Source: Thermoplasmatota archaeon (GTDB lineage: Archaea; Thermoplasmatota; Thermoplasmata; Thermoplasmatales; Thermoplasmataceae). From it: a stretch of 35,549 nucleotides of DNA. A program made the translations under genes and the position numbers. Of the stretch, positions 29,090 to 30,732 are shown piece after piece. The notes under the pieces are model-generated. The model ran no database searches. It was not told where the DNA came from and worked only from the letters and a program-made list of their open reading frames with translations. Location of the stretch: positions 1 to 35,549 of the forward strand of contig JAMDBW010000076.1 in the NCBI GenBank assembly GCA_023487765.1, in the 5' to 3' direction. Within the stretch, counting starts at the first letter, position 1; each line of letters opens with the position of its first letter.

Positions 29090-29098
29090 ACCTTAAAT
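29090..29098 (+). promoter_or_regulatory. TATA box of the structured leader and actin-like gene
   Basis: ACCTTAAAT preceded by the A-rich GGCAAAA. Initiation is expected near 29117-29121, exactly where the folded leader begins. The preceding 28981-29089 holds no gene that I can support. Confidence 0.5.
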
Positions 29099-29118
29099 GC
29101 ACGTATGCTAATAGTAAT

Positions 29119-29245
29119 GAGCTTGGAACAGAACTCGACAGTGCAACGAAAGCGTAGCGTAAGCTTGGGATGTAGGGCCTCCTCCATGGACCTGATAACC
29201 CCGGGCATAGATGATGTGAAACCGGTGCATCGTTCTGTTGGCTTT
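29119..29245 (+). ncRNA. Structured RNA or 5' leader (four-way junction) upstream of the actin-like gene
   Basis: Hand folding gives four helices. P1 closes the element: AACAGAAC (29127-29134) pairs perfectly with GTTCTGTT (29232-29239). Inside are H1 (29141-29160: GTGC, A-A mismatch, ACG, loop AAAG), H2 (GCTTGGG 29163-29169 with CCCGGGC 29200-29206, topped by AGGGCC with GGACCT and loop TCCTCCAT) and H3 (GATGT with GCATC, 29213-29231, loop GAAACCGGT). H3 abuts P1, allowing stacking. A TATA box lies the right distance upstream, and the Shine-Dalgarno of the actin gene follows by about 12 nt. It may be a cis-regulatory leader, riboswitch-like element or separate small RNA. No known family was recognised. 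Confidence 0.5.
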
Positions 29246-29250
29246 AGCTA

Positions 29251-29268
29251 AAAAGGTGAATATGTTTG
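29251..29268 (+). promoter_or_regulatory. Shine-Dalgarno selecting a TTG start for the actin-like gene
   Basis: AAAAGGTGA (29251-29259) lies six bases before TTG at 29266. An ATG at 29262 is only two bases from the Shine-Dalgarno and opens a seven-codon frame that stops at once. The family N-terminus begins at the TTG, so TTG is the start. Confidence 0.7.
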
Positions 29269-30246
29269 ATAACAATAGGTGTTGATCTGGGATATGGAGA
29301 TACGAAAGTAGTAGGGGCTGACGGACTCAGAGAGAAATTCCCCTCAAGGTGGGCTCCGACTGAGGCAAAGAATTGGGGCATAGGTGGAACAACTACCGTG
29401 CTAACGATTAACGACGGCGAACCGTTCTTTTTCGGGGATAATGCCACTGGAGCCAGCGTGAGGGAACCACAAGGTGATGGAAGACTTTCTGACCCGGACT
29501 CGTTGCCCCTTCTGGCCGGAGCTCTCTGGGTAAGCGGAGCCGGTAAAGATGGTCAGCCGGTAGACGTAACAATCGGGAGCGGAACCCCTCTCGGTACATT
29601 CGAACACGAAGTCAACGCAGCCAGAGAATATCTTCAGGGAAAAGAGTTTGTCATAAAATCACTGGCCGGAGAGACGAGGACCTTCAAGATTTCCAAGATG
29701 GTAATGAGACCGCAGGGAGTAGGAGCGGCACTGTACCTTCTGGACAAAGGAATGATAAAAACGCAGTACGGATACGGAGTCGTTGTTGATATCGGTTCGA
29801 GGACGACTGATGTATTGACGGTCAACCTGAAGAACATGGAACCCGTAGTTGAAATGTCATTCAGTATTCAGGCAGGTGTGGGTGACGTAGTTGCCGGGAT
29901 AGGCAAGCACATAGCAAAGGAAACCGGATTCGTTGTTCCTACAGATATTGCCAGAGAAGCAATCAGCCAAGTTGTGGTGTTCAAGCAGAGAGAAGTCGGT
30001 GGCCCCGCTGTTTCTGAACCCATTCTGAACAACCTGGCTGCAAAGATTCTGGATAAATTGAGGGAGAATCTCAGGGAAGAGCTTGACCGAATTACTGCCC
30101 TTATACCAGTCGGCGGCGGATCAAGTTTAATAGGCAATAAGCTTGAGACTCTCGCACCGGGTGCAACCATCAGGATTCCTGCCGAGGATTTCCAGTACGC
30201 AAATGCCTTGGGATACAGGGATGCGGCAATGAGATCGCAGGCGTGA
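29266..30246 (+). CDS. Actin/ParM-like ATPase, Ta0583 family
   Basis: A 326-residue actin-fold ATPase that matches the archaeal actin homologue Ta0583 of Thermoplasma acidophilum (recalled, about the same length) along its whole extent. Visible are the phosphate-1 loop GVDLGYGDTKVVGADG, the block GSGTPLGTFE, MRPQGVGAALYLLDKGMI, the phosphate-2 loop YGVVVDIGSRTTDVLTV near residue 172, and the adenosine motif LIPVGGGSSLIG near 282. Ta0583 is structurally closest to the plasmid-segregation protein ParM. It is preceded by a structured leader and followed by a terminator-like hairpin and an RHH-type gene. Confidence 0.93.
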   Translation: MITIGVDLGYGDTKVVGADGLREKFPSRWAPTEAKNWGIGGTTTVLTINDGEPFFFGDNATGASVREPQGDGRLSDPDSLPLLAGALWVSGAGKDGQPVDVTIGSGTPLGTFEHEVNAAREYLQGKEFVIKSLAGETRTFKISKMVMRPQGVGAALYLLDKGMIKTQYGYGVVVDIGSRTTDVLTVNLKNMEPVVEMSFSIQAGVGDVVAGIGKHIAKETGFVVPTDIAREAISQVVVFKQREVGGPAVSEPILNNLAAKILDKLRENLREELDRITALIPVGGGSSLIGNKLETLAPGATIRIPAEDFQYANALGYRDAAMRSQA

Positions 30247-30262
30247 TCGCCTGTCTTTTTTT
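30237..30262 (+). terminator. Hairpin plus T7 tract around the actin-gene stop codon
   Basis: CAGGCG (30238-30243) pairs with CGCCTG (30248-30253), loop TGAT containing the TGA stop, followed by C and seven T. It resembles a factor-independent terminator. The next gene therefore probably needs its own promoter, TTTTTATACAG at 30276-30286. Confidence 0.6.
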
Positions 30263-30275
30263 CATAGCCTGAAAA

Positions 30276-30286: not shown

Positions 30287-30321
30287 TATAACAATCAAAA
30301 TCGTCCTTATTCAATACGAGG

Positions 30322-30732
30322 ATGAGCAAAATTATGCCACTGAAAAAGCAGAAGGGAGTGGAATCCGATGAGGAGGGAATGGAGGAGGACCAGAGCGTCA
30401 CTATTACCCTCGGTAAGGATGAACTCTCAGCAATCAATCTTCTGCGAACTGAAAATGAGACTATTGTCCAGGTGCTTAGAAGAGCGTTGCAGGATTCTCT
30501 TGAATATGGTGTCATGAAACACGTGCTCAGCTCTATCGACGGGCGTATCGCGGATCTTTCAAAGAAATACAAGATCAGTCAGTCTTCAATAATTAATTTC
30601 AGGTATAATGTCGAAGAGGGCATGAGGGTGCCTGAAGAGCTGAGGAAAAAAGAGGACAGCATGACAAAGATAATGAATCTCAAGGCCTCTCTTGAGAAGA
30701 AGTGGGCAGAGGTAGAAAAAACGGAAGAATAG
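30322..30732 (+). CDS. Ribbon-helix-helix-like DNA-binding protein next to the actin homologue (ParR-like candidate)
   Basis: A 136-residue charged protein, not a recognised named family. Residues 24-65 follow the ribbon-helix-helix layout: a strand SVTITL, helix KDELSAINLLR, turn ENET, helix IVQVLRRALQDSLEY. Residues about 76-95 (RIADLSKKYKISQSSIINFR) resemble a helix-turn-helix, and the tail is a charged helix, perhaps a coiled coil. The pairing with a ParM-like ATPase recalls ParMR plasmid segregation pairs, in which ParR is an RHH protein. That is inference from layout. An ATG at 30334 is an alternative start. Confidence 0.6.
   Translation: MSKIMPLKKQKGVESDEEGMEEDQSVTITLGKDELSAINLLRTENETIVQVLRRALQDSLEYGVMKHVLSSIDGRIADLSKKYKISQSSIINFRYNVEEGMRVPEELRKKEDSMTKIMNLKASLEKKWAEVEKTEE

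Follow-up and report, generated by a model that had tools for sequence, protein, structure and literature searches.

The genes for actin homologues of the Ta0583 type are preceded, in three related genera of Thermoplasmata archaea (g1, g12 and g7), by a long leader in which the start of the predicted RNA pairs with the segment situated just 5' of the Shine-Dalgarno sequence, a feature that recurs in 12 species. This end-to-end complementarity exceeds chance in several lineages. We consider it an even call whether the stretch is a 5' untranslated leader of the actin mRNA whose clade-specific 5'-terminal stem affects stability or translation. Since the pairing of the ends is common to related genera and the interior changes freely, the leader is most likely a modest element of mRNA stability or translation, and not a new riboswitch or small RNA.

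The actin locus and the predicted fold of its leader

The window, by which we mean the whole stretch of 35,549 nucleotides analysed, belongs to the draft genome (G000; 1.33 Mb in 88 contigs) of an uncultured, acid-loving Thermoplasmata archaeon. At positions 29266-30246 of the forward strand, which also carries all of the promoter and leader features described below, there is a gene with a TTG start codon that encodes an actin homologue of 326 amino acids. This protein is a clear homologue of Ta0583 of Thermoplasma acidophilum (PDB 2fsj), its top match in the PDB (E 2.2e-128), and it contains the Pfam domains ALP_N and MreB-like_C. The TATA-like box proposed for this gene by an earlier, sequence-only reading of the locus is present as CCTTAAATG at 29091-29099, and the homologous place is occupied by TTTAAATG in the other species of the genus and in genus g12. 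The usual archaeal spacing between TATA box and start site puts the start of actin transcription near 29117-29121, approximately 25 nt past the centre of the box; the block around this predicted start is conserved in ten species. The predicted leader is about 145 nt long and contains the Shine-Dalgarno sequence GGTGA (29255-29259), which is conserved among the aligned leaders. Additional conserved blocks flank the TATA box in the g1 and g12 loci, CATGA...GCAAACATTTAAATG on its upstream side and TTGACAATTG...AGCTT on its downstream side, and these are possibly the sites of regulators.

The closing helix and the three hairpins that had been described for this leader do appear in its predicted fold. 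The perfect 8-bp helix joins AACAGAAC (29127-29134) to GUUCUGUU (29232-29239) and, is predicted from the TATA spacing and the fold to lie within a few nucleotides of the 5' end; in a lower extension, AGCU at 29120-29123 pairs with GGCU at 29240-29243. The hairpins are predicted at 29143-29158, 29163-29206 and 29213-29231, the third of them weak, with an energy of only -2.1 kcal/mol. A comparison with the nearest species, L002, whose actin is 98% identical to that of the window, affects these elements quite differently. The closing helix and hairpin 1 have no changes at all, hence hairpin 1 is uninformative, and the single change in the lower extension, from U-G to U-A, preserves the pairing. 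In hairpin 2 the pairing survives in five of the six changed pairs and is broken in one, whereas hairpin 3 loses two of its six pairs. Since hairpin 3 is weak and broken in the sister species, the four-way junction is not a conserved structure; the interior differs between groups of species. Given that this interior is not shared, and that a covariance model built from four sister leaders (R1) finds no other group, the four-way junction is a single-sequence prediction.

Predicted end pairing across species and genera

Orthologues of the actin gene are present in 37 of the 77 genomes of the family, and among them are 12 distinct long leaders, from 12 species of the three genera. Their minimum free energy folds close end to end in all 12. 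In species L005, L006, L008 and L010 the end helix has 17 bp (8 + 9, on either side of a small internal loop) and 97% of its cells are paired; four of its pairs change on one side and yet still pair, and the outermost pair alone fails, in two species. There are no two-sided changes in the g1b end helix, and because the changes in the helix are almost all one-sided, the support from covariation is modest or weak. When the structure predicted for one species was read in the sequence of another, fewer pairs were lost than the average for the same changes distributed randomly; this held in each of 16 comparisons, although many were individually weak and often short of significance.

The interior of the leader cannot be aligned between species groups of a single genus and has no common fold. 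R1 fails to recognise the leaders of g12 and of the window; in a search of 31 loci and 77 genomes it gave good scores only to its own four source leaders, so that homology of the leader elements across groups is not demonstrated. In the alignment of orthologous upstream regions, which had been proposed as a check, the pairing that closes the ends recurs in four species groups with differing sequences, but the interior is variable and the covariation modest. Comparison of the sequences moderately supports a structured leader as such.

Many genera that carry a Ta0583-type actin have short leaders. For example, genus g6, labelled Thermoplasma-like by sequence similarity only, has actins that begin most like Ta0583 itself and, unlike the window, short leaders without any structure closing their ends. 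Genus g3 (L012, L014, L037 and L040) has a different, short hairpin directly 5' of the actin Shine-Dalgarno; its stem sequence varies among the species and its pairing is kept.

Chance, regulation and other explanations

The main rival to a structured leader is that this is a long, fast-evolving leader without structural function which folds by chance, its ends pairing as those of many RNAs of such length do. This is a possibility that we rate lower but take seriously. The window's own leader had been described as folding almost completely; its fold is not unusual in energy: the minimum free energy of 29119-29265 is -38.8, against a mean of -38.85 for dinucleotide shuffles (z 0.01). Taken singly, its end-to-end duplex (L001) has a p of 0.22. 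Extension of the RNA by 60 nt of the actin reading frame lowers the expected number of end-to-end pairs to 3.6 at 37 °C, where the closing helix loses most of its weight, and to 8.9 at 55 °C, where the helix recovers part of it; at 37 °C the added sequence competes with this helix in both L001 and L027. Between the sister species the leader is 84% identical, as against 89% for the upstream intergenic stretch, and this too suits an unconstrained leader, as do the unconserved interior and the scarcity of two-sided changes.

Against chance stands the fact that all four species groups fall in the favourable tail, whether judged by RNAalifold, by rank within the locus or by the end duplex. The duplex p-values, which are uncorrected for the choice of segments after the folds had been seen, are about 0.001 in four g1 species, 0.007 in L027, 0.017 in g7, 0.05 in both L002 and L004, and 0.07 in both L003 and L030; the recurrent pairing thus departs from chance strongly in one group and weakly in the others. 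RNAalifold compared with column shuffles gave z-scores of -2.5, -4.0, -4.1 and -3.2 for the four groups. Such scores run low in this region anyway, and hence they were calibrated on other windows of the same loci, among which the leader ranks 5 of 46, 5 of 47, 3 of 46 and 4 of 46 for a conserved fold. In every group it is outranked by a window close to where the actin gene ends and the next one begins. The antisense strand folds less well in L001/L002 (-20.6 versus -32.2 for the sense strand) and in g12b (-12.8 versus -27.4), and about equally well in g1b and g7. Variation is lower in paired than in unpaired columns, under a structure that was itself taken from these sequences, in L001/L002 (6 of 66 versus 16 of 70) and in g1b (13 of 54 versus 41 of 72), but not in g12b (14 of 64 paired versus 12 of 41 unpaired).

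If the leader is a modest element of stability or translation, its action could be envisaged as follows. RNA polymerase would start near 29117-29121, and the first 10-30 nt of the transcript would pair with the segment just 5' of the Shine-Dalgarno, closing off an interior of about 110 nt as a domain that folds differently in different species. The closed end would most likely protect the mRNA at its 5' terminus and hold the ribosome site in one position beyond the domain, and in this manner tune both the life of the mRNA and its translation. Stem-loops at the 5' terminus are known to stabilise mRNAs, the leader of Escherichia coli ompA being an example. As predicted for the actin leader, the helix of such stems lies at the 5' terminus of a long leader or close to it, the Shine-Dalgarno is outside the helix and the interior sequence is free to vary; the actin leader differs in being archaeal and in having a putative long-range helix that encloses a large domain.

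It is rather unlikely that the leader is a regulated element that switches actin translation when bound by a ligand or by a protein, which might be the one encoded by the neighbouring gene. That neighbour is itself conserved and has a conserved hairpin that masks its Shine-Dalgarno, so control through leaders may be a theme of the gene pair. However, even within the genus no unpaired core is conserved, there is no aptamer-like block, and removal of the 5' arm changes the exposure of the Shine-Dalgarno in no consistent way; for these reasons the riboswitch envisaged by the sequence-only reading is unsupported. The Rfam comparison proposed with it found no family: the window has no match at the gathering score and nothing relevant at permissive thresholds. 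The element precedes no other gene in the 77 genomes, with no further copy in the source genome and no second copy in any of the others, and the leader runs directly into the actin Shine-Dalgarno, so that a separately acting RNA has no evidence in its favour. A literature search, which covered few subscription papers, found no work on the leader of Ta0583-type genes.

A site acting at the level of DNA, either an operator or a centromere of the parC kind upstream of a ParM-like actin, we regard as improbable. The Ta0583-type actins have been included in the ParM grouping (PMC2651865), a ParR-like partner may follow the gene, and conserved blocks flank the TATA box on both sides, but the array of direct repeats that such a centromere would have is absent: repeat counts around the promoter equal those of shuffles, and no centromere-like direct repeats were found in the window. 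Moreover, conserved complementarity that includes G-U pairs in g1a and g12b favours RNA over DNA. What survives of the proposed segregation site is the neighbouring gene, which could encode a ParR-like partner. A small leader peptide hardly deserves credence: an open reading frame of 44 amino acids from 29117, or 48 from 29105, spans the stretch exactly (29117-29251), but it shows no purifying selection between the window and L002 (17 non-synonymous changes versus 16.6 expected, the actin gene having 6 non-synonymous and 88 synonymous), its ATG has become TTG in L002 and indels between g1 species shift its frame; we rejected it as coding.

The gene downstream of actin

Downstream of actin, most genera have a gene for a small protein, located at 30322-30732 in the window (P0002). 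Proteins of this type have an N-terminal pattern like that of ribbon-helix-helix proteins and, near the C-terminus, a nearly invariant K, E and W (LKxxLExxW). From these sequence features it is possible that P0002 is a ParR-like partner of the Ta0583-type actins; no fold or family was confirmed for it, the structure model being too uncertain to name a fold. Its Shine-Dalgarno-like sequence, AGGATGA, forms the 3' arm of a hairpin of approximately 7-8 pairs (30301-30325) whose pairing is found across species, the 5' arm being complementary in ten species of g1 and g12.

Two other observations concern the 3' side of the actin gene and its fate. At 30237-30263 the actin stop codon lies in the loop of a terminator-like hairpin that precedes a T run, and hairpins recur at this place in relatives with differing sequences. 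In genomes G012 and G083 the actin gene is in pieces with internal stops, and these are possibly decayed copies.

The arrangement resembles the parMRC partition systems of plasmids in that the gene next to a ParM-like actin is small and encodes a protein with a conserved motif at the C-terminus and an N-terminus that is possibly of the ribbon-helix-helix type. It differs in that the actin promoter has no parC-like repeats and that the partner is a ribbon-helix-helix protein only putatively. One could speculate, at rather long odds, that actin and its ParR-like neighbour are a chromosomal partition-like pair in the Thermoplasmatales under RNA-level control, in which the folded leader and the hairpin masking the Shine-Dalgarno would set how much filament protein is made relative to adaptor.

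If confirmed, this would be a case of an archaeal cytoskeletal gene whose leader is both structured and conserved, among organisms in which few untranslated regions have been studied. The gene pair matters more than the leader, and its downstream member may prove to be of greater interest: a conserved neighbour would make the role in DNA segregation that has been proposed for Ta0583-type actins directly testable.
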